From positions 62,001 through 126,000 of the forward strand of contig FN649739.1 of the NCBI GenBank assembly GCA_000310025.1: 64,000 nucleotides of DNA, given 5' to 3'. Below are positions 3,028-59,276 of this stretch, one piece after another. The notes under the pieces were generated by a model, which was not told the DNA's origin, searched no databases, and saw nothing but the letters and a program-made list of their open reading frames with translations. Origin of the DNA: Ectocarpus siliculosus. Its lineage: Eukaryota; Sar; Phaeophyceae; Ectocarpales; Ectocarpaceae. The translations under genes were made by a program, and so were the position numbers. Every line of letters starts with the position of its first letter. The stretch's first letter is position 1.

Positions 3028-6000
3028 TCAGGCGTTCATAGCCGTGGCCATGGCAGTCTCGGCTGCCTTAGTCGCTTCGGGGAACTTGGCTGTGTACACC
3101 TGATGGAAGGAAGGCGAAACACGTACCGAACGAACGTGCGAAGGGGAACATATTTAGAAAGAGGAGCTCAACCGAAATTCATCGACATTTCTTGAGATCA
3201 AGGGTGCCACCCAGCCATCGAACTTGGGCCGCTACACTTCAGACAACTCAAAACAGCATGCCACCCATCGGACCCAACCGCCTACATTCGCTCCAGGATA
3301 CTGCTGTAGGATCGAAGTATCGAACTCAGGCCAAGCTTCCTCACAAGCAGTGAGCCCGACGATTGCGAGCGATTTCGTCACAACTACCACCACGATTTTC
3401 TTGAAAAGAATCCCGTCCCAGCTCCATTTCCAGGTTGCTTCTCCCGCGCCCGCCCTTGGTAACCCGTCACCTGATGCACCCACACGCCGTAACAAATACC
3501 CATACAGCAAACCCAACTTCTTGTGTACAGGTCCAACGCGTTTTCACCTTTGGGTTGAGGTACTCCACGAGGACCATCCTTCCGGCGAACCAGCGGCCGT
3601 TCAGCATCTCCGCAGATGCCTGGTATTGTTTTTTGTAATTTTTGTAAAAAATGGGGGTAAGCATTGGTCAGAGGTATTGATGCAGCACCAAGTTACATGG
3701 GTTAGGCAAAACTGACAAGAGGCACGTTTCACCTCTGGCGAAGATGAAAAAAGGAGGAAATCCAAAATATACACTGAGGTTGGTACTACTTCGGTTTTAC
3801 TACAGGTGGTTTCACCTCTGGCAAAGATGAAAAAAGGAGGAAATCCAACATATACACTGAGGTTGGTACTACTTCGGTGGTACTACACGTGGTTTCACCT
3901 CTGGCAAAGATGAAAAAGGGAGGAAATCTAAAATATACACTGAGGTTGGTACTACTTCGGTGCTAAGACGTGTCAAGATCCGTCCTCAATACATGCACTG
4001 CTATTTTGTTGTGTTTACCAAAACATTGCGCTCTGATTACTTTTTCCGAACAAAACTCTACAGAATAAACACCAATTGAGGCAAATGTGTGAAGCGACCT
4101 ATAATAAAACACATGCGGTACGCCTGAAGAAGGTTGATTGACGAGGCAACACCACCATTGCTATTGCTGTCGAAGAGACCCTCACCACAGCGGCCCCGGT
4201 AGTGCTGAACATCACATACACCAAGCCTCCGGGCTGCCTGGACTCCACGTAGCTGTGCATGACAGCCCCGTGCTTTGAGCACTCCTGCATGGGTTAATCA
4301 ATCGAGCATCGACGGGCTGCCAGTTAGGGGTGAGGTTGAGGTTTGGGATGGAGCAAGTCAATAGAGGAACGAAAAGCAGCAGATGCAACGTGTACCGCGC
4401 AAATTGATGTCTTGGGGCGGGGATAAAACATCGGGCGGGAAACGAGCTGCAGAGAAGCAACCAGATTTGTATTTGAACACACGACGAAGCTCGTTAAATT
4501 GCCACCACATGTTGATTAGAGAGTAAGATACACGTAAGCGGCCGTCGAATCTAGGATTGATAGCATGAAGCAGACCTCAATCCACTCGTTAAATCATCGT
4601 CTCTGTGCTCCCAAATCATTCCAGTCTCCATTGAAATAATCCACAAGACATAGAACACAAACCGCCACTGCAAAACGTTGCCCAACAAAGCTCCCAGTTT
4701 GAACACACTACTTACGACCGAAAACCCGGCAACAACTGTGTGGGGTTGCGTCACCATCGTCACATCACCGCTCACCTCCTCCATCTCCTCCTTGATGTCA
4801 AGCTCCCACCCCTCGTCGGTCTCCGTGGCGGGGTCAAACATGTTCTTGACCAGTAGACAGAAGGTAGGGGTGCCGACCACGGGGGGCGCGGCCGCCGCCG
4901 GAGCGGCGGCGGCGGCGGCGGTGGGTACAGCGGCAGCAGGAACGACAGCGACACCAGGGACGCCCGCTCCCATCCCCGGGAGCATGGCGCCTGTACCGAC
5001 ACCAGGGAGGCCGGCGGCGATGGCGGGATGGAGAGGGCCCTGCCCCGTACCTTGCCCAGCCGCCTGCTGAAACCAAGGTGCAACAACGGTGACATTCCGG
5101 GGGGGGGGGGGGGTTAACGGTTAAGTATTGACCCAATAGGGGGTCAAAGGCCCCAAATCGAATGTTCGTCAACGGATTCCAAGAAAGTGAGCGAGTCCGG
5201 TCGTACGATGGCAAAGTGACAACGATCACGGGAGATAGAGGAATAAACTCCACCGCTTCAACGGCACCCACCGTTTGGCGCCGTGCCCTGTGCAACGCCT
5301 CATGGCCAGGTGTTTGACGCCAAATACAACGAGCGGGGATCTACAACAACCGAAGCATGAGCGGAGCCAACGCCAGAGAAACACAAAAAGCGCGCGAAAC
5401 AAAAGTAAAACGACGTCTGGCCTACCACCTGCTGCTGTAGCCCCATCGCCCCGGCGGCCCCGGCCCCGAAAGCCGTTCCACTAAGCGCGGCTTCGAGGGC
5501 AGCGTTCGCGGCAGCAGAGGGCGATTGGGAAGCGACGCCCGTCATCCCCGTGGACATCGCCCCCCCCATGCCCGTGCCGGACATGCCGGGCAGGGTCGCG
5601 TGATTCATCATGCCTGAGGAGTAGACGAAAAAACGGAACGAACCGGGTTGTGTGGGGTGGGGCGGGATAGGCAGCAATGGGCTTGCTCGTGGATAAGCGC
5701 GACGCCCGCCTACACGAGCAAACCAACGGGAAACCACGCCGATGAAACAAAAACGCGCAAGCCGAAGGGCATGCTAACAAAAGAGGCGATCACGTCAACA
5801 GCACGGGATCTTTGCCAGCGGTGTTGTCAGAAATATAAGCTGGATATTGATGTTCAGGTTCACGAAACGTTAGATGCGTCGCCAGTCTTGCGACCCAAGA
5901 GGCAAGCAACAGAGAGAGTGCAGATTAAGCCCACACACCCCAGCCCCATATGTGCACTGGTGGTACATAAACCAAGCCGTGGTTCAAGTTTCGCTGTGGC

Positions 6001-33134: not shown

Positions 33135-35539
33135 TGGGTTAGAGCGCACCTCTGTATTCTGTAAGAGCTCCTTGTGTTTTGTGATCTGCCGTGTTGGAAC
33201 GTACCCCTTGGAAAGCATGGCCCGCATCCATAGACGAACCTCGGTGCCATAGGAGCAAAGCACGGATTTCCGGTAGTAGACGAACGCTGGATGCACCGTT
33301 GTCATAGAAACAGCTGCCGGTGGTACCCTCGCGTTACAGTATGTGCAAGACTGTTGTCTGTGGTGAAAATAAGCGGTGGTTACGTCGCTGGACTACATAG
33401 AATTCAACACGCATCTTTTTCAGGGTAATTGCAAGCGAGCACGAGAAAGTTGTTGACTTCCGTATTCACATTGTGCTTCCCGGGCGCATGGACTGTCTGT
33501 CACGATTATGCCAACTATTACCAAATGCGGGCATCAACGACATTGCCCCGAGTGTCTGGCAGCCCCGTGCTCAAGGTTTCTCGTTTTGCCCATTCTGTAT
33601 CACGCTCCTGCCCTGGACGCGTGGACGAGCATGCATGTAGCAGTTACACGGTCGTCTCAGTGGCATAATTTCTCCGTGAGATCGCTTTCGCAGATCGGAT
33701 GTCAACACTCGCGTATCATTGAGATAGCCTTGACACGCGGGCCCTACACTGCCTGCACTGCACTGCCTGCATTGCACTGCCAGCACTGCCAGCACTGCCA
33801 GCACTGCCAGCACTGCCAGCACTGCACTGCCAGCACTGCACTGCCAGCACTGCACTGCCAGCAATCGAGTGATGACGCATCCCAGCAATGATGATGTGAC
33901 GACACCAAGGTTCTCTTCGACCTTGCCACCTACACCATCTCCTCGCCCCCGTCTTGTCTGACAACGAGCATCTGGCGGATAGTTAGTTGGCGAGCGCTGA
34001 GCGAAGTGATGTTCATGTTCTTCAGATGCACGCCACGCAGAAGCACACCGAAACCAAAATGGACGTCAAAATGGTGGTGCGAACAGAAGCACCAACAAAG
34101 AAAGCTTGTCTGCACCGTGTCGTTCAGTCTTTGAAATCTCTTGAGCAGAGAAAGGAGAGGTCTAGGGCGTGAGAAGGCACCGCCGCGATCTCGTGTGGGG
34201 GGGTTTCGTGAGTGCAGAGAACTCACAACCGGGCTCAGTATATTTCCAATAGCTTTTTTGCCTCCGGGTTAGGCACGGGAGACTGAAGGGAGGACGCCTT
34301 TTGTTGTATGCATGGAGGATGCAATCCACGACAGGGATTACAGTTCTCTATTCCCTCGGTTCCTCCAAGAAGTGAGAACAATAAACCAACGCCCAGAACC
34401 CCCCCTATAGCCGAGTTTCATCCTCTTCGTTGGCAGCGAACACCCCGAAGGCACCGAGACGGGCCTCACTGGCTGCGCCAACTGTATCTTCAGGTCCTGG
34501 TACCTTGGCATTCACGAATCCCGTGTAGCAAGGTGGCCTTGCCACACGTCACTTCCTCTTGGCAGGATCTGTGACTCGAATCTGCTCCAGTTTGTTCATG
34601 ATTTGCTGACAGAGCATCCTCATTCAGCCACCCATGGCACTCATAGGCAACCCATGACACTCCTGCTCCATCGAAAGCACGGCTCCTCACGAGTGGAGAC
34701 ATTCCGTCCCAGCGAGAAACATCATTACTTGATGACCTTCCTTCGGCACCAACCTGTCCAACGAGCTGTGGAAATCTTCGACCACACGATGATTCGAGAT
34801 CTTCATGTGGGGCATGAGCAGAGACCCCATGCACACACAAAGCGGAAAAGCTTTGCCTTGTGCGACAGAAAAGCATGATTTCACATATCAAATCTCATGA
34901 GATTCGACGCCAACCTCCCGAGACTTGTCACGTTAGAAATCTCATGGACGAAGCAACCGCCATTGTTCGCGCCCAGGCAGCCTGACAATCCGCTCGGCAT
35001 GAGGAAGAAAAGTATTCTATGAGCACGATCTCCTTCGAGCTCGGGGCAGGTTAATATTGACTAGAGATCCCCGGAAAAGATTAACTGTGGAGAGCACCTG
35101 TCATTCTTGTTAGCTGGTACTAGCGTTACGGTGGTAGGAGATGTATGGCCCGGAAAGTTACGTACAAGAACACCTCAGCCTCGCAGCTCAATGGCCGAAT
35201 TTCCAAAGTGACATGATCCTCTTCACTGTTTGCTACGCCCGGCGCTTTGGACTATCAATCTGTTGTTGATTGGCGTCAACTCTGACCTATCTCAGTAGCG
35301 CTCACGCATGCTCGAGGACCTCGCAAACATTCCATTCGATCGACCGCGACGGTAGAGCAAGGGTTAGTACTCGCGCTCCCTGGTAAGTACTGCAAGCAGG
35401 TTTTCTGTATCTCGTGGCTTGTTTCGGGTCGCTGCCCCCACTTCTCATCAACGCCGAACCCTGGGCACAACGCTGCATGGGGCATCCCCCGCCTATCAAG
35501 CAGTTCGACACTCCAGTACAACCGCTTGATCAACACGTA
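33135..35539. other. Intergenic region with a minisatellite
   Basis: Lies between the plastid-targeted gene and the convergent discoidin-like gene. It contains the TGCCAGCAC minisatellite listed separately. I found no exon with credible splice sites; frames of up to 133 codons near 34.5-34.9 kb have no coding character. Confidence 0.5.
33747..33866. repeat. Minisatellite of TGCCAGCAC and TGCAC units
   Basis: A run of TGCCAGCAC 9-mers (five in a row in the centre) flanked by alternating TGCAC and TGCCAGCAC blocks. All six frames stay open across it because neither strand can encode a stop, so the repetitive Cys/Gln/His or Gly/Ser/Ala frames here are artefacts. Confidence 0.92.
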
Positions 35540-38500
35540 TTACATAGCATTTGCAGCGAACGAGATAAACATCGCGCCGACCGCCACCACGCCCACGAGC
35601 CCCTGTCTAGAGCACACCCCTCCGCGCGCAAGCGCGCCGTTCCCGAAGTTGTCGATGTCAGCGGCATCATCTGCATCATCTCCAGTCGACGACGGCAAGC
35701 CAATGGTAGGACCATCGTCTCCGCTGGTATCACCGCCAGCTTCGTCGTTAGCCGTCGAAGACGACGAATCATCGACAAGATTGTCGTCGCCGCCGGTAAC
35801 ACCGCCAGCTTCGTCGGTAGCCGTCGAAGACGACGAATCCTCGACAAGGTGGTCGTCGTCGCTAGAAACAACAACACCAGCGGCATCATCGTCATCGTTC
35901 GCCCACATGTAATAGTCGTCGGAGTCGTCACCGTTCATCCACGAGTACACGGGAGCTTCGGTTTCCGGGGTGGGGACGAACGGGGCCGGTGTAGGCGTCG
36001 CATCAGGGGTCTGAACGAAGAGCTCCACCTAATAGTTGTTGGACGTGCGAGCTCAACATGGTTACTGCCACGTTGTGTTACAGCATGCGAGCGTGTATCA
36101 ATCACACGAACATTTTTTCGGAACGGTCACATCACTGCCAGCCTCCTCCTTCATTGATATATCGTAGGACGCCAACCACCCATCGTCCATTTGCCCAATG
36201 CCGTGAGCAAACCTTGGTGGCCTAAATCCCATCGCCGCACAAATGACCGCACCTCGCTGATACTGACGATTGCTCCAGCCGACAGGTTGAAGTGGATGCC
36301 GAGGGACACGGTTAAGGGCCTGATCAGGTTGACCCGCTCGCCTTCTCCTAGGGGCGTGCCGGGAACGGTCGTAGATGACCCGACAAGCTCGTCAGCGTAC
36401 TGTAGGCAACGATCGGCCATCACGCGCACAACGGAGACGAGTGCGGTTGTTGAATGGATCCAGGGGTATCCAAGTCGAGATATCCTTCCATATAGCACCC
36501 GTCCGAGCGGGCCGGTAAATTCATGAAGCTCCTGGTGGTCTGCGCGAGGAACAGGCTACTATTTACTCCAGTGGCGTGCCAAGGTGACACCGAGCACATA
36601 CTAGCGGCGACCGTGGCCGCCTCTTCTGCTGGTGTCACCTTCGCCGTCGTATGATATTTACTCGACTTACGCCGTTGTAGCAGGAGTACGCGTCATTAGT
36701 GCAGGTGGTCACGTCGAATTGTATGGGCTCCTTGGTGGCATCGTTGCTCTCGTGGACATCTGGGATCGTCAGCAGGGGTGGGCGTAGTAGCACCGGGCAC
36801 GGTCATTCGCGAGTCAGTCATGGGTGTCGCAAAAGTAAGATTCACGTTGTTCTGTCTCGGATCTACAGCGGTGAATTGGTGATTGTTGAGAAGCACGATA
36901 ACCACTGGACTCTGCATCGGTCAGCGCTGACTGGCAGTTCAGCGGCCATCGTGCTTCTCAACAAAACTCAACTCCAAGCACTCCCAACGGTGGTTGACAG
37001 CCACGGAAAGGCAGCCCTGGCACATTCTGTGTGAGCAACACACGTACATAGCATCATGTAGGAGGCGGTGTACTCGTCGTTCAGCTCGAAATACAGCCAA
37101 CAGGAGTCGTGGTCGAACGAGGACTCGTAGCCGAACGAGCTGCTCAATGTACCGGTTGGCGCCTGGCATGACCAATATGAGGCGGCCACCGTGTTGTCAT
37201 CGCCGTCCTGCGTTTGACGGCACAATGGTCACGGGCAACGAGGGGGGGATTACTGGCCTGTCGCATGCTGAAACTACAAGCAGCCTCTCCCGCGTTTCAA
37301 GGAGAGTCATGGATCGCTCCCAATGGTACATAGTGGTTGGTTCACCTCAGAAACCGCGAGCTCTCTCACCGTTGTCATGTTAGGGCCGAAACCGGCGACC
37401 GACCAGGAGGCAGAAGGAGTTACGGTGGTGATCGTATCAGCGGCCACTGTGAACAAGCAAAAGTACAGCGACCAAGCGGGTGGGATTAGTGGTTGGAGAG
37501 CGTAGTTGGCAAACCGCCGGCGCAGGTGCACTGCCGTGAGAACAACTGTCTATGTGGCACGGCATCGAACCTACTAGAGACCAAGGAGGCAAGGCTTTTC
37601 ATGTGGGTCGAGGCAAGGGAGAATGCACACGTCCCGGGATCACAACAGAATGGAAATGGAGTTCTGACACGCGTCCGTGCTCACCGTCGTTCCAGGCTTC
37701 CGCAGCGGGAATGAACACCTCGGTCTGAGTCACCTCCACGTAGATCTCCACCTGTGAAAGAGAGAAAAGCACCCTGTGAAGCTGGGCATGTTTGGGCGAA
37801 GTAGCTCTTCGCACGACCACATTTATTTCGCAGGGAGAGGCTGCAAGCAGTCTCGTCGAGTTGTTGTGATCAGCACAGGCCACCCCGTCCATTTCTTAGT
37901 CAGCGTTGGGGTAAACAAAACTGTAGCCTGGGCGGAGAAGGGCCGCCCGCAAATATCCTACTAGCTAGACTACCCTCCCGAGCTTCCGGGTCGCGAGCGT
38001 GCCCGATAACCACTCACGAACCTCACTGATGTCAACCCACTGTCCTGCCGAAAGCACGGGAACGACCGTCAACGACGTGGCCAAGGGTCTATTCAAGTTC
38101 ACCCTGTGACCGGCTCCGAGTGGTGTGCCCGGTACGGTCACAAAGGAACCGGCGGGGTCATAGATGGAGCTGCTACTGTACACGTTCATGGTCATTGCTT
38201 CCTTGGTGGCATCATCGCTCTCGTGGACATCTGGGGATTCACGACAGTTCGAGGGGCATACAATAGTAGGAGAACGATGGACCGTCGGGCAGCAAACGGG
38301 CAGGGCCAGTGGGTGTGATAAGTAGTGCGTGCGACGTAAACCACGTCTCTGAGGGGACATTCCGACAGATCAGAATGTGCAATTCAAACACGACGGGCAG
38401 AAGACTGCGCCGTCAGTGGGCGGGTGCGTGATCAAAAATTGCAGCGGCCGAAGCAGTCCTGCCTCTACCGCACAATAGTTCGACGAGCACGGTGCGTTCG

Positions 38501-41250
38501 CCAGCGAACATGGGGGAGTCCATCGGCCACGCGTTTGACGAGCGTGTGGCCAAACGCACGTAATCGAAGGCAATAACTCACATATCACCACGTGCGAAAC
38601 AGTGAACATGGGGTTGTCATCGTCCCAGACGCTGCCGCCTTCGTCCCCGAACACGAATTGCAGCTGGCAATGTTGGGGGCTTGAGAAAGATACGTCATCT
38701 TCCACCTCCACGTCCAGGCTCGACTCGCAAGACCACCTCGAGGATGCGACAGTGTTGTTGTGGCCGTCCTGTGGAGGCGCAGGCATGGAGACGGCGCAGT
38801 GGAGGCGTGTGGATGTGCACGTACGTTCATGGGTTTTGCGTATTCGTATGCATGGCCCCATGCGACCTTCGGTGTTGTACCAAACTCGGCACACCACCCT
38901 AGAGCTGCGATATATTGTTCATGCCCTCATATAGGTACCGACAACAACTCCATCATCCTGACAGCCGGATGAAGAGGAGCGAGTACCAAGTTCGAGGGGC
39001 ATGTTTAATATTACAGCATGCCTGTTGTTGTCTTTGCTAACATCCACGCAACCAAGTTCTAACGAAAATTTCCGGGAGAACCCAACAGCTAAAAATGTCT
39101 CCAAACATTCGAACGACAGCAGGCAGCGGGTGGTTGGTACGCGACGAGGCATGCTGACAGCACTCAATGCATGTATGTGTGCGTGGTTTTGGTAGGGCTG
39201 GATGAAGTGGAAGACCAACGCCGAGGTATCGTCCTCCCGTTGATGCCGTCACCCATCAAAGGGTTGACGGTCACTCCGGAAACCGTGATGAAAGTAGAAA
39301 GCAGCTACGAATTGTGAACCTTTTTTACGCGCTGTGGGGTGGCGGGTCAGTTTCAACGTCGGTGAGAGCATCAATACTGTCGGTGGACAGTCCACAGAAT
39401 TCAAAATGTAGAAGACACGCCATGTGTGCCAGTGAGCCCGTCCGTGTCGGGGGCGACATAACAAGAATTGATATGATGACTTCACCCTGCCATATACGAC
39501 CACGCGTACTGCCTCGCCGCCGTACAGTGTAGAAGCCGCCTGGTCAATGCCCACTCACATGTGCGAGCAGAGGATCGCAACCAGCGTCCCCACAGCCTGC
39601 ATCCGTTCTCAAGTCCCAGAAAGTTGCAGCTGCCACGACGTTGGAGACGGTGTCCACTTTCACTAGGAAGTGGTTTCGTGTTCAACGCAGGAAAGGCGGC
39701 ACAATGGTGACAATTGGGTACCAGTGAGTGGATGGGTGGGCCGTTCCCTTGCCAAGCTCGTGCGGCGTATCAACAACAGCAAAGCGCCTGCCCAAAAACG
39801 ACTAGCACCTTGAGTTCGAGCATAACCAACTCAAAGAAGATATGAACACAACCCAAAGAGCAATGTAGGCTTGCACCCTCTCCATCACGCAACGGTCGTG
39901 CAGTCGAAACCCGCACCGGTCGATATTGTAGGAAGCGTCGCAACCACCACATCGTCGGGATCGTCTACGTCCAGGTAGATTTCCACCTACAGCAGTGCGT
40001 GAACATGTACGCGTGGTGCAAGGTGTAGGGCGCGAGAGTCACCAAGACGGCCCTGAACGCGGGGAGTCTCTGTGCCCAGTCGACAGCTCTCCATCAAACT
40101 GCGTTAATCTTTTGGGGCGCAAGCCGAAGGATGTGCACATCCTGCGCCTTCAGCGCTATTCCAATCGGTTCACTTTGCGTATCGTGTGTGCTGAGGTCTG
40201 TCTCAAAGAGTGACCAACAGCCGCTCGACAAGCAATGTAGGGTACAGTACCTCGCTAACATCGATCGCCTGATCGCTCGTCAGGTCGAAGAGCAGATGGA
40301 GGTAATTTCCAGATGCGTCCGGTGGCATGTTCACCCGCTGTCCCGCGCCCAGGGCGGTCCCTGGCGACGTCAAGTCCGTGTGCACAGTGTCGTACCCGAC
40401 TTCAACGTCGAAAGAAATCGATAGTTGTGTGGCGTCGTCACTCTCGTGGAAATCTGGTGGCTCGACAGACGGTAGACGGACAGAGAGGGCGGTTTCGTTG
40501 GCCGCAACTAAGCGGAGGACTGTCTCGGTTTTCACAGGGCAGGGTGTGGGTGGTCGGGCTCCCATCTCAGCCGTGTTCTTGAAGGGCTTATGGAGGGTAC
40601 GGACGTCATACTCGCAAGCACAGTTCATCATCACCGACGATCGATGGGTAAGTGTTGCCCACAACTCCCAGGGCTTCGACAGAGGGGAGGTCAACCGCCT
40701 GCGACAACGGGTACGGTTGCAAAATGGTGGATACTCACAGATCATCAAGTACGAGACATCGAAAATATCATCGAACTCGAATTGAAGCTCGCACGTCGTT
40801 GTTGTTCCCAAGGTGCAAGACCAGCGCGACTCCGTCACGCTGTTGTCCTCGCCGTCCTGGGTTAGTGTATCACCCATACGGTATTGGGGGACGGTATTGA
40901 GTTGCATGAAGTCCGGCTGTTTTTCAAGTACCCCTCATGGCACCGAATGAGTGCGGAAGTACATCACGACTATCATGCCCAGAAAATGGGGGGGAAGGGG
41001 AGGGTGATGCACGACTGGGTGTTGCCAACGACTTCTCCGGCACGGGGCAAACAACACCAAAAGAGCACACGACGGAGACCGAGAGCTCTACCGAAAACCA
41101 TTCCGCAAAGTCCGCCTAAAGCGTAGGCAGGGATTCTCACCCTCGTCAAGCGGGGATCGCATCCTGTTAGGCCACAGCCGCCTTCGCTCCCCAAGCGGAG
41201 GTCCCACGCGGTGGCGTCGACCACGACATTGGTGACATTGGCCGCCTCCA
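35540..41250 (-). CDS. Secreted/surface protein with three discoidin-like modules; 5' exon missing
   Basis: Thirteen exons: 41141-41250, 40739-40856, 40251-40453, 39917-39986, 39559-39662, 38582-38768, 38022-38230, 37685-37751, 37370-37446, 37048-37207, 36671-36759, 36253-36399, 35540-36028. All phases agree and give at least 676 codons to TAA; one base comes from an unseen upstream exon that should carry the signal peptide. Each module runs: DG(D/E/H)(D/N)N(T/S)V, (Y/R)WSC, a short Cys-containing strand, an HES(D/N)DAT segment, PGT(P/A)LG(A/E)G(E/Q/H)RVN, then (I/V)SEVE(I/L), the end motif usual in galactose-binding F5/8C/CBM32 folds. The last exon adds a Thr/Pro hinge, an Asp/Ser-rich stalk with a 22-residue repeat, and a hydrophobic C-terminus (GLVGVVAVGAMFISFAANAM), compatible with a GPI or membrane anchor. 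Carbohydrate binding at the cell surface is inferred from fold resemblance only. Confidence 0.82.
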
Positions 41251-42043
41251 CTGAGAACAAGTGGAAATTCACACGCAAGAGCAACCGCACCACACGATGT
41301 TGGCGACATCACTTGAGCATGAACGCCCACAAAGTTACGTTTGATGTTCCAACCAACCACGTTGTAGTGCAAAACGTGACAAACTGGTAGCACACGATCG
41401 AGCTGCAGCAGGCTACGTGTGGAAAGAGTGTTCCCGGGCCGTGTAACGAAAGCCGAGAGGAAGGTACGGTATGGCGTTCAGCACGAGGGAAATCACTTTG
41501 GATGCAGGCCATTCGAAATGAAATATGCTGTCGTGTTGAATAAAGGGACCGCAGACCATTCAAAGTGAAAACCAAGTTTCAACGTACGTACATGTTACTA
41601 TGGAGAGCAAGGTCCGGGGCCTTGCGGCAGCGTAAGAACTTTACACGTGTCTGGCGAGGCGAACGAAAAACTGGGGCTAAGGATCGAGCGGGATGAGGGT
41701 CGATCGGCTTCTTTTTTCACAGCGACGATGGAACAACACTCTATGAAGAGGAAATTTGACAAACAGTACTAGCAAGGTGGTTCTCACACTTTTATGGTGA
41801 AGCGCATGCTTTCTTTTGCAGTCGCGTGCATTTGTTCACCGGCAGGCACACCAACCGCAGAGTTCACGACGTAGAAGTCACTCCTGTTCGTGTGTATGCA
41901 TGTAGGAAGGATATGAGGACGGTTCTGTGTTCCGTAGACTGAAGGGGCCTACTGTGGTACCTGCTGTAGTAGACTTGGATGAGTCAGTGACAATGACAAT
42001 GAGTGGCTCGCCAATACCGCCGAAGAAAGCTACCATGGATTTG

Positions 42044-42135
42044 GCGATGTATCATTGGAAGTGAACACGACAAACACCTACAATATGATTGCCGGGTCGA
42101 AATGAAAATGAAATCAAGTAGGGAGTTACAATGGA
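42044..42135 (+). repeat. Dispersed repeat, copy 1
   Basis: Begins ATTTGGCGATGTA and contains GTGAACACGACAA, GGGTCGAA and TGAAAATGAAATC. These landmarks recur in the same order about 610 bases downstream with substitutions and small indels, so the two are direct duplicate copies. Confidence 0.75.
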
Positions 42136-42654
42136 GCGAATCAATCGTAAAATGACATTTAGACTACAGGACACGGGGTGATTGCTTAGAATCGGTCGTG
42201 CACAACGAAAATCTATCCCTCGTATTCTAGCTTGTTACGGTGAGGGTGCGCATCACGACGGCGGTGCATGAAAATTATCTTATCATTATCATGCACCACC
42301 ATACACCGTGAGATTGTCGTGGTGCCCACGAAAATATCAATCAAGAGCATTTCAAGGGTGCAACATCCTGAACCTAGGTATGTAGTGATCCGCCCTCCAA
42401 GAAAAGTGGGAACGCCCATTGTCTCGCCAGCCACATTAACTGCGAGGCGCGACGTTGACCCTTACAAACCTGTCTCACGCCCCGCCGCAAAAAATACCAG
42501 CCGGGGGAATACGAAACGTAGGAGTCCCGAAACTAACCAAGCCCCCAAATGGTACACACCATTCTACAGTACACACATCGAGGTCATTTTGCGGACAACT
42601 ACAGAGACACTTGCCATAGACGTCGACTTTTTGTTCCCCGTTCCAAGTTGTCGT

Positions 42655-42757
42655 TGATTTGGCGATGTACCATCAAGAGTGAACACGACAAGCACCTCCC
42701 AAACATAAAGACTAGCTGGGTCGAACTGAAAATAAATGAAATCCAGTGACGAATTTC
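42655..42757 (+). repeat. Dispersed repeat, copy 2
   Basis: Direct copy of 42044-42135: ATTTGGCGATGTA, GTGAACACGACAA, GGGTCGAA, then AAATGAAATCCAG. The copies are clearly diverged, so this is an old duplication or two members of a small repeat family. Confidence 0.75.
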
Positions 42758-43018
42758 AATAGGGTTAGAGGAGTATGGTGATGACCACGGTTCGGTAAAC
42801 ATACATGCATTTGAGTGCTATGTCCCCTTGAATGCTGTTTCCCCAAAGTGACCGCATGGTTTCCAGTGATCCATCCACCCCGTGAAAAGTGAAAGTATGT
42901 CGCTTTATCAAAAGCGTGGATGATGCACAATATATTGGACACAAAACTGGGGCCTTTCGTGCATGCATATAGACTATGCATGCATAGAAAGCAAACATAT
43001 ACACAGAAGATAAAAGAT

Positions 43019-43403
43019 AGGGAAATGGACAAAAGTGGGTATACCCACGCCATTCTCGGACAAAAGCCGGGTACTCGAAAATCCGGCGCGCGCGCCCTCC
43101 AGAGGCGACCCCCAAACGACTCAAAACCCTATTCTGACACCTGGGCGACACAGCCAGGGACCATACACAGCACAGGCATCGATTTTTTTCCCACTTTCAG
43201 GCACCCCTTTGGCCCTAATACCGCCGAGGCGCGCAAGGCCTCACCAGAGTGCCCACTTCTGTCCGACATCGCGGTGGGTATACCCAGCGGCGTCAACTAA
43301 TTTTTTCATGTACCCGCTTGTGTCTATATTTTGACCCACTTTTGTCCAAATTGTACCCCACTTTTGTCCACTTCCGGACAGCGGAAATCGAGCGGAAATC
43401 GAC
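43019..43403 (+). repeat. Left terminal inverted repeat of the fold-back element
   Basis: Runs from AGGGAAATGGACAAAAG to GCGGAAATCGAC. It contains several internal copies of CCACTTTTGTCC or its complement, the probable sub-terminal motif of the element. Confidence 0.9.
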
Positions 43404-43849
43404 TTCGTATATACATACATGTAGTGAATATGAATACCTTTAACATCACGTAGTAGTTGGGTGGTAAACTGCCTCGACCTGCTGCTGCTGCCCTCGCGAG
43501 TGGGTGTGCACTCGTAGTGGTGGTCGGTGTTTTTTTGTGCGTGTGGCGCATGTGTGTGTCTGTGTTGCTATATGCGCGTCTTTTTGTTCTGTATGCGCGC
43601 CCGTTGGTTTTGTTGTCCGTTGTGTGTCACGCATTTTTTTATGGCGTGCCGTTAGTGCGCTGCTTGCCGGGCTTGCCGCGGGTATCTTCCCGTGCCGGTA
43701 CCGAAGGGGTCTGGCATGTTTCTGACATGTTCCTCCGCGGTCGGTCCGCAGTCGGCAGCCATGGATAGGAAAGATGCCATGGATACGGTGATGGGAGATT
43801 CTGAGACGTTCCGAGGCCAGTCGATGTTCTGCCGTGCGGTGACGTGGAG

Positions 43850-44236
43850 GTCGATTTCCGCTCGATTTCCGCTGTCCGGAAGTGGACAAAAGTGGGGTAC
43901 AATTTGGACAAAAGTGGGTCAAAATATAGACACAAGCGGCGGGTACATGAAAAAATTAGTTGATGCCGCTGAGTATACCCACCGCGATGTCGGACAGAAG
44001 TGGGCACTCTGGTGAGGCCTTGCGCGCCTCGGCGGTATTAGGGCCAAAGGTGTGCCTGAAAGTGGGAAAAAAATCGATGTCCGTGCTGTGTATGGTCCCT
44101 GGCTGTGTCGCCTAGGTGTCAGAATGGGGTTTTGAGTCGTTTGGGGGTCGCCTATGGAGGGCGCGCGCGCCGGATTTTCGAGTACCCACTTTTGTCCGAG
44201 AATGGCGTGGGTATACCCACTTTTGTCCATTTCCCT
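43850..44236 (-). repeat. Right terminal inverted repeat of the fold-back element
   Basis: Inverted copy of the left arm, from GTCGATTTCCGCTCG to CCATTTCCCT. It differs from the left arm by scattered substitutions and one- or two-base indels. Confidence 0.9.
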
Positions 44237-44243
44237 AAAAGAT

Positions 44244-46152
44244 AACTTATCACTCACAGTCAACCAAGAAATCTCATGATGAACATGAGTTTAACGAAGT
44301 GTTTCACTGACTTTGATTGTTGTTTCTTTTGTGGGGAGACGGGGGCGGCGTGCTCAACGAATCCGACTCATCCGTGTCCCTACTTACTTCCTGTCAGTCC
44401 ATTTCCTTTTGTTTTTTGTCCTACCGTTCTCTCTTAGAGTCACTCGGTTTCGCTCACTCCCCCCACAGGCAACAAGCAATTGACCAAAAGAACCACTGCA
44501 CTGCACCACTGCTTGCAACGAAACACAGTTAGATTGGCTGCTTGTATCAGATACGAACCCGGAATCAAGGTCGGTGGCCGGTGCATTCCACAAGATGGTC
44601 CTGGATCATTCCCGTCATAGATTTGACGATGCTCGATGCACCCCTTGCACTTTTTTGTCCCGCGTACGTCGAGGTTCCTCATGAGATTTTCGAGGTACAT
44701 TTGGGTATGAACATAATAAAATGGTGTAAGTTAGCGACGCATGGGGCAGCCTCACGGTGCCTCATGGTGCCCATCCATGGTGAACGATGCGATACCTCAA
44801 GACGTGACTCAATAGTCAAATACTGTAAACTTCCCTTGATTGTGGGTTGGTTTGTTGCTCCCCAAGCTTAGGTACTCCACGAATTGTAGTGTAGTACGTA
44901 CACGTATGTATCTGTGCGAAACGATTCTCTCTCTTCGTCCAACCTCGACGAAGACCCCGGCAAAAGCAAAGAGGGCGGGAAACCATGGACAGAATGACTG
45001 CAAGTAACAACAGAACATGGCTTGTGGATGCCACGAGCAAGTTGCCATGATAACATGAGAACATATGTGCAGCATCGATGCCTCTTTCCGGCCGGCGCGC
45101 CGTGAGCTGTCGATGCTTCTGCCGCGCGCGCCCAAACGAAGAATCGAAGATACTCGAGCATACAACCAACCAACACCGGTCGGTGCCGGCATATCGAATT
45201 GCATGCGCCACGCCGTCCTACAGCGGCAGGCTTTGGTTCGGTGGCGCAACAGAGGCATGGGGAAATTCAATCCCGGCAACCTAATCTTTTTGCCTCAGCT
45301 GCATCGAGCAGTGACTACTGTAACGACAACATGCATGTTGAGCTCGACCCACCAATACCATGCTGTTTTATTCGCGAAGAGAAGAATCAGAACTGCGGAA
45401 AGCAGTTTTGTGTGATCTACACATACATGTAGCACGCGACGAAAACCCAAAGCCCTACAACACAGAACAGTAGGGGTCGCGATGCGGAGGTCTGATCAAA
45501 AAGCTGGATTGCTACGTGGCCGGGCTGATTTTTTACTTCGTGCACAGCTCAGATACATGTCAACGGACATCGGTCTCCGGGTTCTTCTGACGCTCGAAGC
45601 CCTCCCAATGACTGCTGTCTGTGCACCAAATAGGAATGAACCAGGCGCGTTGTCCTCTTTGTTCGCCATCCACTTACTCTCACCGATCACTGCTATCGAA
45701 ACGCCGCTTGTGTCTACGAAAGCCAAGCTCAATGAGCGCGCGGACGTGAAATGCTCTCCATGTGAGGGCGCGTGGCAAAGAATACATGACCCTGACACCT
45801 TCGAAGTGCGAACCGTTCTCGTGAGAAACGAATGGTATATATTATTCATGTAGGTCCACAGTCAAAAGTCACGCACCAATCTCAGCGCTTGCGAACCGGC
45901 TCGCCATCGACAGCACCAGAGCGACCATCCCAAGCCTTGCCATCCACCCATGCGACATCATGATCCTTCCCGCTGCCTGGGCTTGGCCTGTTTCCTTCGT
46001 TTTGTTGCTCGTGGTGTCAGACGAGCGGGGGCAGGGACTGAGGACTGGTCCTCAATCCTCAAGCTCCGAACAGAAAAAAGATCGGACCGATTTTTCGTTT
46101 TTGTTTCGCCGCTTGTGAGAGAAGAGGCCCCCTAGTAAATTTCTGAGAAAAT
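44244..46152. other. No gene resolved
   Basis: At 45482-45853 both strands carry an open frame of similar length (about 117-123 codons). Neither shows a motif or splice partner that would decide between them. The rest shows nothing I can support. Confidence 0.4.
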
Positions 46153-56600: not shown

Positions 56601-59276
56601 GCAAACAAAGTATGCCAAGGACCGTTGTAACAGCCGTGGCCCCTGCTGTGTGGAATAGTACCAACAACGGGTCCGTGCGTGTCGCTCAGCCAGCTGGCGA
56701 CCATGGGGGCCACCCGAGCCTAGACCTCGGATAACCCAAACCACAAGAATGGAGAAAAAATGACGCACAGGCGTATACAGGATTGAAATGGGATCAACAA
56801 CACGAACGCAGCAAGGTGTGGCTTTGCTCAACACGAGGATGCCTCAGGCTGAACTGAGGATTGGTCCAAACGCCATGACTAAAAACACCACCCCCGTAAT
56901 GGTATGCAACGAGGACAGGGAGGAACCAGTAGAACATAGATGGAAGTGGGGGATCGAGGAGATTGCAGTAGTGGACCAGTACAGATACCTCGGAGTAGAG
57001 ATCGCAAACGACTGCTCGTGGAATGCACACATGTCCAAGGTAGCGGAAAAGGGCATAGCACGAGGAGGGAAGCTGCACACAATACTCGCAAACCGGCACC
57101 TCGATACACGCATCAAATTGGCGGTTTTGAAGAGCGTAATCGTACCGCCGCTAGAGTACGCCGGAGAAGTATGGGAAGGAAATAAGAAGGTAGTGAAAGA
57201 ACTCGAGGCGGCGCAGATGAAAGCAGCGAAAATCATCCTAGGATGCTCCAAGCGCACAAGTAATGCAGCCGTAAGGGCAGAATTGGGGATCCAATCCCTA
57301 CGGTCGGGAAGAGACGCAAGGAAGCAGACATGGCAGTATCGCATGTGCGGGATGGGAGAGGAGAGGTTGCCGAGAATAGTATGGGAGGCGAAGTGGGCAA
57401 ACAAAAAGAGGGGTAGACAACCCACGGAATGGGTCAAGGTTGTAGAGGACGTATGGAAGGGGTTGGACATCGACGAAGATGAAACGCTGGAAACGGAGGG
57501 TCTACAGGGGTTCAAGGAGAAGATATCTGTTGCTTGTGCCGAGAGAGAAGAACAGAACCTAAGGAAAGAAAACAAGGATAAGGAGGGTCTAGAAGTGTAC
57601 GGAATGTTGAAAGAAGGAATAGGGTTCAAGGATTACCTACATGGACCAATGGGTGCAGGGACAAAGCTTAAGGTCAAATTCAGGACCGGGGACATAGGCC
57701 TTCGAGAACGTCGACGAAGACATAGGACGGTAGACGACGAACACGACAAGTTCAAATGTGATTGCGGCTTCGAATGCGAAGACCGTGTTCATGTAGTCGC
57801 GGAATGTCCGTGGTACGAAGAGGAGAGGGAAGCGTACATGACTGAGCTGGGAAAAATACAAGGGACGTACAGGGAGATGTTTGAGGCATGGAATAGAGAG
57901 GAGAGGACGGTAGCTGTACTGGGGAGTAGGAAGTGGTTTGAGAAGGCGGGAAGGGATATCGTTAGGATAGACAGACTAGGGAAGACATTTTTGAGCCACC
58001 TTTGGCAAAGTAGGAAGGAACGATTGGCCATCGGTGATCGGTCCTGTGGGAACAATGTTCCGTCCTCTCGAGGACGCGTGGTCAATGGTCTAACCGCTAA
58101 GGCATGCAAAACATAAGAGCACGCCCCCCCGCCCCCCCCGTCGTTGAAGTAGTTACGTCACGAATCCACCCCCGCGGCGAATGTCTCGGGACCCCCGAAA
58201 CGACTTCCGGTATTCAAATGAGATGCCCACGGCTGGCACCGGCACTTTCACCACTACCACGGGAATGCATAGTACCACCGCCTAGGAGCTGAGAGGAAGC
58301 TTACGACAGCCACCCACGCTGTCTCAAGAGCATCGCTAAATCCCTGGCACATCGGCGGCGGGCAAAGCCGACTGCCCGAAAACGCCTCCTAGCTGTCCAC
58401 ACAAAACGTGAGATACTCATCAAGCACATGAAGCCAAATTAAAGCTACGTTCGTCAAGTGATTCACACCCCAACAACCAGACTCCCCTTCGTCAGAAGAA
58501 CGGGAACACACACACCTGTCCCGCCGCCCATCCCCGCAGTAACGAAAACAAGGTCCGTCCCCTCGACGATCTCTTGGATCTGCTGGCGGCTCTCGTCTGC
58601 TGCCCGCCTCCCGATATCCGGAACTCCCCCAGCGCCGAGGCCACGCGTAATCGTATTGCCGATAGTCATTGTGCGGGCTCCGTACACGCGGCCAAGCGCC
58701 TGCGAAAAGAGAGGTCACCCCAAAGTAAAGGGCGATAGCATTGCCCACGTAGGAGCACCAACAAGAGTCAAGCTAGCGTTTGCAGTTGGTTCGAGGAGGC
58801 GTTGTACGCTTGAAGACGAGCAGATCGAAGGCCCAAAGCTACGGTAGACTTGATTGGCATCAACTGCCGTGAGGAGAGAGCAGCCGAGCCAGCTAGCCTA
58901 CCGAACGGCTATGTCTGGCATAGACGTGACATGCACGCGGACTAGTCAACGTCCCACAAGATCACGGTAGGAGGTGGAAGGGTGGTGGTGACTCGGCCTA
59001 TCCCCGTGGTGTGAAAACTTTACCCAGTTTGAACACGTTCATCGCGAAACGTTGTCACTAACAACACAACACAACGGCAGAAATCAAATAAAAAAACACA
59101 ATGCTGCCACCACTAGCAGCACCAACGCCAAAAGAAGCAGCAACATCAACATCAACAGCAACAAACAACAACAGCACCTGCACGTCGGTGTTGAGCGACC
59201 AGAAGTCAACGCCCTCGATCTCGGACTCCATCATTCGCTTCACGGCGTTGCTTCCCCCGCCGCCTACGCCGATCAC
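52315..59276 (-). CDS. ftsZ: FtsZ cell/plastid-division GTPase, 9 exons seen, 5' end missing
   Basis: Tubulin-like GTPase that forms the division ring; in photosynthetic stramenopiles a nuclear copy acts in the plastid, and the close fit to plastid/cyanobacterial FtsZ supports that here. Exons: 59178-59276, 58516-58699, 56404-56522, 56051-56179, 55459-55526, 54903-55080, 54176-54312, 53188-53462, 52315-52583; total 1458 bases, 485 aa plus TGA. Motifs in order: [23 protein letters not shown], the tubulin signature GGGTGSG (split by an intron), [26 protein letters not shown], the T7 loop [35 protein letters not shown] and [10 protein letters not shown]. The last two exons encode an extra Ser/Pro-rich and then Gln/Pro/Gly-rich tail. 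An alternative stop follows GGGRK if the intron after 54176 is retained. The transit-peptide exon(s) above 59276 were not found. The intron 56523-58515 contains an antisense LINE. Confidence 0.95.
56788..58116 (+). mobile_element. 5'-truncated LINE (non-LTR retrotransposon) in an ftsZ intron
   Basis: A single open frame of 442 codons, antisense to ftsZ. It is the C-terminal part of a non-LTR reverse transcriptase polyprotein. The thumb-region motif [12 protein letters not shown] with W(N)AH follows directly, then [18 protein letters not shown], a long charged helical region, and a C-terminal Cys/His cluster [17 protein letters not shown]. The catalytic RT core (with the FADD box) is absent, so the copy is truncated at its 5' end and cannot move alone. 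No RNase H domain is evident. The frame has no internal stop or frameshift, which suggests recent insertion or constraint. It sits wholly between ftsZ exons 58516-58699 and 56404-56522. Confidence 0.88.

Follow-up and report, generated by a model that had tools for sequence, protein, structure and literature searches.

The window analysed here, a stretch of 64,000 nucleotides from the brown alga Ectocarpus siliculosus (contig FN649739.1), carries on its minus strand a gene running from 41250 to 35540, with at least 13 exons which encode three modules, referred to as A, B and C, followed by a stalk. All 12 introns between these exons have GT-AG borders, a single open frame is kept throughout, and the 13 exons contain neither stops nor frameshifts. 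The span coincides with that of the original prediction, and the strand is the minus one. The features, in the order of transcription, are the following.

45877..45961, minus: candidate first exon from rule-based scans, with the putative signal peptide MMSHGWMARLGMVALVLSMASRFASA/EI, phase 1 out
41141..41250, minus: module A W exon, phase 1 in, 0 out
40739..40856, minus: module A DG exon, 0 to 1
40251..40453, minus: module A HES exon, 1 to 0, weak donor GTACTG
39917..39986, minus: module A VE exon, last strand and linker, 0 to 1
39559..39656, minus: module B W exon, 1 to 0
38582..38768, minus: module B DG exon, 0 to 1
38022..38230, minus: module B HES exon, 1 to 0, weak donor GTTCGT
37685..37751, minus: module B VE exon, 0 to 1
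37370..37446, minus: module C W exon, 1 to 0
37048..37207, minus: module C DG exon, 0 to 1
36671..36759, minus: module C HES exon, first part, 1 to 0
36253..36399, minus: module C HES exon, second part, past an extra intron, 0 to 0
35540..36028, minus: last exon, with the VE strand of module C, a Pro/Thr linker, an Asp-rich stalk, a hydrophobic C-terminus and the stop
35715..35862, minus: 69-bp tandem repeat in the stalk, 2.1 copies of a 23-aa unit

The VE exon of module A has another possible donor, which would move its end to 39911 and leaves phase 1 either way, the donor at 39917 being the better one. For the W exon of module B, another possible acceptor lies 6 bases upstream, with the phase unchanged. 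The composition, the isoelectric point and the whole-protein database search refer to the version with the 39911 donor, which is two residues longer, and the aligned module stretches stop before this difference.

Intron phases 1-0, 0-1, 1-0 and 0-1 recur in all three modules, as had been claimed, and under random phases the chance that both B and C would match the four phases of A is, by simple arithmetic, (1/3)^8 = 1.5e-4. The codons split by the introns correspond as well: at the entry of the W exons of modules B and C the intron divides a Val codon as G/TG, the W exon of module A likewise begins with TG, the G ahead of it being presumed, and in 3/3 modules the intron between the DG and HES exons divides a Tyr codon as T/AT. 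Pairwise identity among the modules is 42-50%, a moderate divergence rather than the strong one initially proposed, and third codon positions hold most of the differences in each of the three module pairs. Each module has four Cys residues, an even number. The repeated phases, the matching split codons, the level of identity and the third-position bias support the earlier proposal that a multi-exon cassette was duplicated. The accompanying statement, that every module is built from the same four exons, holds for A and B, whereas in C one extra phase-0 intron (36670-36400) splits the HES exon and brings the number to five.

The register of the cassette differs from the one first put forward, in which the VE exon opened a module. 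Since this exon contributes the final strand of the module before it (SE/VEIY), it ends a module, and the cassette reads W-DG-HES-VE. Only three VE-type exon starts are found on the minus strand of the 64-kb window, and the register VE-W-DG-HES was rejected because a fourth start is absent there. In the predicted model, modules A and B are bounded on both sides by phase-1 introns, the phase of the intron upstream of module A being taken from the frame of its W exon, while module C has a phase-1 intron on its 5' side and continues at its 3' end into the stalk. On these predicted borders, W-DG-HES-VE is a symmetrical class 1-1 unit. Two duplications of this four-exon block would generate the three-module array and, as phase-1 introns in the linkers flank the block, the reading frame would be kept with each added copy.

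A profile of the three modules, searched against 2392 six-frame stretches of the window, returned nine matches, all within this gene (E 2e-45 to 0.002); the best stretch outside it reached E 0.53, and no other copy of the module was detected in the 64 kb. A pattern scan combined with tblastn confirmed no relatives in viral contigs or genome contigs and gave one chance-level match each in phages and plasmids (E 6 and 2), for module B only. A PHROGs search yielded three weak families, the best at E 0.17. Viral contigs were also searched for relatives of a further ORF of the window, at 56764-58116, and of a TIR-end pattern, and none was found; neither Rfam, at the gathering score, nor ARAGORN found anything.

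That the locus is a decaying pseudogene is very improbable. Its weak donors, in the HES exons of modules A and B, and a TIR element that lies within the putative first intron would be compatible with decay, but the 13 exons are free of stops and frameshifts and the differences between modules are biased towards third positions; the pseudogene reading was rejected.

The candidate signal-peptide exon (45961-45877) joins the W exon of module A in frame. The simple rules that define such a match picked out two in the 4.7 kb upstream, where the density across the window would predict about 0.3. Joined to the 13 exons, the candidate exon would give a protein of 702 aa with an acidic stalk and a hydrophobic end. 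The stalk is also Ser/Thr-rich, Asp is the commonest residue of the protein, and the computed pI is 4.05. A signal peptide and membrane anchoring are both putative, the hydrophobicity of the C-terminus having been judged by eye; the stalk and this C-terminus make a surface role, as originally suggested, plausible. A GPI-anchored surface protein would need an N-terminal signal peptide and a C-terminal GPI signal, for which the rule-based exon and the hydrophobic end are the candidates.

The modules had been described as discoidin-like. At E <= 10, no match to F5/8C (PF00754) was obtained with five ORFs, the three modules or the whole protein, and sequence searches of Pfam, NCBIfam and PDB gave no match supporting a family. 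Module C matched Pfam M64 at E 0.03 with 13.9 bits, below the cut-off of 26. The letters WSC represent a local motif, and a WSC domain was discarded, the Pfam match being absent. An AF2 run on a contiguous read-through produced an unusable model (pLDDT 45.6, pTM 0.26).

Profile-profile comparison with bacterial F5/8C domains of the CBM32 type gave a different picture. With hhalign, the three-module profile scored 40.6 against 15 CBM32-type domains, a set seeded by a hand-typed consensus chosen for its resemblance to the module, and 25.9/30.2 against 27 PF00754 domains, the sources of the two sets overlapping. The controls remained lower: four other families reached at most 15.9, the reversed profile 20.6, 100 column shuffles 21.9 and 200 block shuffles 22.5. 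The alignment is colinear and spans template columns 7-119 of 120, with a probability of 22-89% that varies with set and direction. Single modules scored 19-22 and 12-19, not above shuffles. Because the profile-profile score exceeds the controls but database searches and single modules fail, the comparison supports a distant homology to F5/8C domains, not family membership; the discoidin likeness stands at the level of the joint profile and not at that of individual modules or sequence searches.

The full-length alignment extends to F5/8C PF00754 and to the CBM32 of alginate lyases, e.g. AlyQ (PDB 5xnr, 7d29), with which the modules share the motif order DG...W, LQF(D/E), a strand, a loop and an (I/T)SEVEIY end. 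In contrast to these domains, the modules lie below Pfam detection and have their own WSC...C pair, HES(D/N)DAT and PGTxLGxGxRVN motifs. It is unlikely that they represent an unrelated, undescribed beta-rich extracellular domain whose likeness to F5/8C, with DG, W and EVEIY suitably spaced, is convergent. The silent sequence databases, the failure of single modules against shuffles and the variable hhalign probability point that way, while the colinear full-length alignment and the scores above both types of shuffles and the four other families speak against it.

We favour, with a probability of about 0.6, a functional spliced gene whose product, secreted and probably anchored in the membrane, has three distant F5/8C-type modules and an acidic stalk, the array having arisen via two block duplications. 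In a working model of this protein, the stalk would hold the modules away from the membrane, several weak carbohydrate or matrix contacts would sum up, and two loops, that of HESDDAT and the one preceding SEVEIY, might form the binding face.

The nature of the ligand can be approached through the CBM32 of AlyQ, which binds cleaved alginate and in which W303 is a ligand Trp and R248 has been proposed to contact the uronate carboxyl (PMC5651945); the CBM32 of VxAly7B is reported to bind alginate gel (PMC8776709). With AlyQ numbering counted from its sequence and module positions taken from the profile alignment, the position of W303 holds Trp in module B, Ala in A and Ile in C, and that of R248 is Ala in 3/3 modules, so that none of the three combines the Trp and Arg of the alginate-lyase type and alginate binding is unproven. 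The protein may, as first suggested, bind several ligands; the residue at the W303 position varies from module to module. Unlike the alginate-lyase CBM32, the modules are in tandem, exon-encoded and in a eukaryote. A wall lectin binding alginate in the manner of these lyase domains is quite unlikely: the nearest profile is of their type and module B keeps the Trp, but the Arg is replaced by an invariant Ala, and CBM32 ligands are widely varied. A somewhat unlikely alternative is that the modules bind one another or other proteins instead of sugars, in self-association or adhesion, with the acidic stalk binding wall calcium, as the loss of Trp in two modules and of Arg in three, the abundance of Asp and the low pI would suggest; the many sugar binders in the fold family argue against it.

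The gene is a genuine case of duplication, and its general kind is broadly known. In brown-algal LRR-ROCO and NB-ARC-TPR genes, exon shuffling has been described in which one 72-bp phase-2 exon corresponds to one LRR (PMC11378527) and repeated exons of constant phase lengthen the binding region, as they do here. Here, however, one globular module takes four exons, joined at inner phases 0, 1, 0, and no sign of shuffling between genes was seen. Animal class 1-1 extracellular modules, as outlined in PMC8001218, are likewise mainly-beta and phase-1-bounded and have a phase-1 border at the signal peptide, to which the candidate signal peptide with phase 1 out corresponds. The algal block apparently does not follow an animal pattern; it has three inner introns, and tandem duplication only, with no transfer to other proteins, is seen in its history.

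The same source attributes the bias towards phase-1-bounded modules to introns at the border of the signal peptide, and raises the question of why exon shuffling should be 'restricted to Metazoa'. It is improbable that a multicellular alga took this route, argued to be a metazoan speciality, independently of animals and built a surface protein from a class 1-1 beta-sandwich block which was copied beside a phase-1 signal-peptide intron and recurs in other genes of the lineage. A single gene alone is a modest finding; if the module family recurred in an independently multicellular lineage, such a layout outside animals would favour the mechanistic explanation and make it testable, and the gene would also be a new candidate for a protein of the surface or one that binds the matrix. 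Among the open-access papers listed by the literature searches, no title or abstract opening names this gene or a brown-algal array of discoidin modules.

The gene occupies 35540-41250 on the minus strand, where 13 exons are read in a single unbroken frame up to a stop that ends at 35540, all 12 introns between them being GT-AG. The exons form three modules (A, B and C), each built from four exon types called here W, DG, HES and VE, with the module as suffix (W_A, for example).

Exons of the three-module gene
41250-41141, minus strand, module A, W exon
40856-40739, minus strand, module A, DG exon
40453-40251, minus strand, module A, HES exon
39986-39917, minus strand, module A, VE exon
39656-39559, minus strand, module B, W exon
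38768-38582, minus strand, module B, DG exon
38230-38022, minus strand, module B, HES exon
37751-37685, minus strand, module B, VE exon
37446-37370, minus strand, module C, W exon
37207-37048, minus strand, module C, DG exon
36759-36671 and 36399-36253, minus strand, module C, HES in two exons
36028-35540, minus strand, module C, VE with stalk
45961-45877, minus strand, candidate signal-peptide first exon, the best-shaped upstream scan match

Exon phases run 1-0, 0-1, 1-0, 0-1 in all three modules, as the original prediction of a repeated four-exon phase pattern had it, although module C carries an additional phase-0 intron inside HES. A Val codon is split G/TG at the entry of W_B and W_C, with the same TG opening W_A, and the DG/HES intron splits a Tyr codon (T/AT) in each module; since the split codons match, common descent of the modules is supported beyond the phases. 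Identity is 50% for A-B, 42% for A-C and 46% for B-C, and 43 columns are invariant, including the blocks DG..N.V..S.WSC, HES.DAT, PGT.LG.G.RVN and SEVE. Third codon positions differ most in every module pair (0.60, 0.57 and 0.52; first positions 0.42-0.47, second 0.27-0.35). Repeated phases, matching split codons and 42-50% identity thus show duplication of a multi-exon cassette within one gene, as predicted; exon shuffling between genes is not shown. A profile of the three modules, run over the 2392 stretches of 15 aa or more that the window gives in six frames, recovered nine stretches of the gene (E 2e-45 to 0.002, the VE exons being too short to score), and the best stretch outside the gene reached E 0.53.

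The DG/HES introns measure 285 (A), 351 (B) and 288 (C) nt, each a multiple of three; that of module A (40738-40454) is stop-free in frame and, if retained, would add 95 residues in frame. A contiguous read-through (DG_A, the 285-nt intron and HES_A, together with parts of exons from modules B and C), which includes translated intron sequence and is not the spliced module, folded with pLDDT 45.6 and pTM 0.26.

The cassette had been delimited as VE-W-DG-HES, a register that is likewise symmetrical (0-0), so that phases alone cannot decide. In F5/8C (discoidin, PF00754) domains the stretch (I/T)EVEIY is the last strand, with which the end of the alignment to AlyQ, an alginate lyase with a CBM32 domain, agrees. 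SE ends the HES exon and VEIY or VELF opens the VE exon; the HES/VE intron therefore interrupts the last strand, so that the module is completed by the VE exon, which also encodes the linker. On the minus strand of the window, an AG acceptor with V-[DE]-hydrophobic-[YF] after it occurs at exactly three places, namely VE_A, VE_B and VE_C. The array therefore reads (W-DG-HES-VE) x 3, its last VE running on into the stalk. The unit W-DG-HES-VE is symmetrical (class 1-1), and all that a first exon has to contribute is a signal peptide that ends in phase 1. The available text of PMC8001218 presents class 1-1 modules as the animal pattern, and that of PMC11378527 reports repeated in-phase exons in brown-algal ROCO and NB-ARC-TPR genes.

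No match to the modules was found in NCBIfam or PDB sequences, and the one Pfam match, M64 on module C, has E 0.03 and falls well short of its cut-off. F5/8C domains were gathered starting from a hand-typed consensus of the CBM32-type (bacterial) subset, which matched PF00754 and AlyQ chains and led to 79 loci, from the best 80 of 200 confirmed places; the CBM32-type set (109 loci, 131 domain matches) was narrowed to 15 domains by filtering on length and capping identity at 55%. Sets for PF00754 (27 of 30 loci usable), Laminin_G_3 (28 of 30), CBM_6 (28 of 30), fn3 (29 of 30) and NPCBM (4 of 4) were taken from ten genomes. By hhalign, the three-module profile gave 40.6 (89%) against the 15 CBM32-type domains and 35.0 (75%) in reverse direction, and 25.9 and 30.2 (22% and 47%) against the 27 PF00754 domains, the two sets sharing source loci and hence not being independent. 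The other four families gave at most 15.9, the reversed profile at most 20.6, 100 column shuffles up to 21.9 and 16.7, and 200 block shuffles up to 22.5 and 20.2. The alignment spans columns 7-119 of the 120 of the 15-domain template. Single modules were no better than shuffles (19-22 against the 15, 12-19 against the 27). A module HMM run on 4563 ORFs from the fetched loci, most of which were F5/8C loci anyway, weakly ranked F5/8C loci at the top (best sequence E 0.0011, domain 0.017). NPCBM has a discoidin-like fold, yet its four loci matched neither module nor F5/8C, so the profile comparison misses remote members. The predicted discoidin-like character is thus upheld by the joint profile, which exceeds its controls, but not by single modules or by Pfam, NCBIfam and PDB sequence searches; judged from sequence, the modules are probably distant homologues of F5/8C domains (about 75-80%), and we conclude that they should not be filed as PF00754 or CBM32 members.

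For AlyQ, the available text of PMC5651945 discusses W303 and R248 for uronate binding and reports that the CBM32 binds cleaved, not intact, alginate. With residue numbers on the aligned chain counted by hand, the profile alignment places Ala (A), Trp (B) and Ile (C) at W303, and Ala at R248, within HES(D/N)DAT, in all three modules; unlike AlyQ, no module has the Arg, and only B has the Trp. AlyQ-like binding is thus not expected in modules A and C. The HES.DAT loop, invariant in the modules, sits at the place of the CBM32 GDxR loop and may contribute to the binding of a ligand or metal.

The last exon encodes a Pro/Thr linker, an Asp-rich stalk and a hydrophobic run up to the stop, and the protein may be anchored at the surface. 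The model lacking the candidate first exon, with VE_A ending at 39911, has a computed pI of 4.05 and contains 13 Cys; by hand count each module holds four of these and the tail one. A 69-bp tandem repeat (2.1 copies) lies in the Asp-rich stalk.

Upstream of W_A there is an in-frame stop, with no ATG in between. A scan of both strands of the 64 kb for an ATG, hydrophobic core, small-residue cleavage site and phase-1 donor found six distinct donors on the minus strand and three on the plus. Because two matches were seen in the 4.7 kb upstream against about 0.3 expected at that density, 45961-45877, which gives a 702-aa model, is a candidate and not a result. The putative first intron (4626 bases) contains a terminal-inverted-repeat (TIR) element at 43020-44235 (with flanks 43011-44244), bordered by a perfect 9-bp repeat, TAAAAGATA; its inverted arms, 387 and 389 bases long, agree in 376 of 390 aligned columns. 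Such long arms and 9-bp duplications are reminiscent of Mutator-like elements. Also upstream of W_A, the stretch 42027-42697 contains a 53-nt repeat in two copies that are 79% alike and separated by 618 bases.

The window has about 53% G+C and contains spliced genes. An ORF at 4554-5120 (minus strand) matches Pfam RBM39linker (E 3.1e-9) and belongs to a gene for an RBM39-type splicing factor. A 450-aa open frame at 56764-58116 (plus strand), with no Pfam match and no relative in viral_contigs, resembles, by eye, the C-terminal portion of a non-LTR reverse transcriptase protein. An 83-bp repeat (2.9 copies) occurs at 3726-3962, and units of the CACTGCCAGCACTG type form a short tandem array at 33743-33863.
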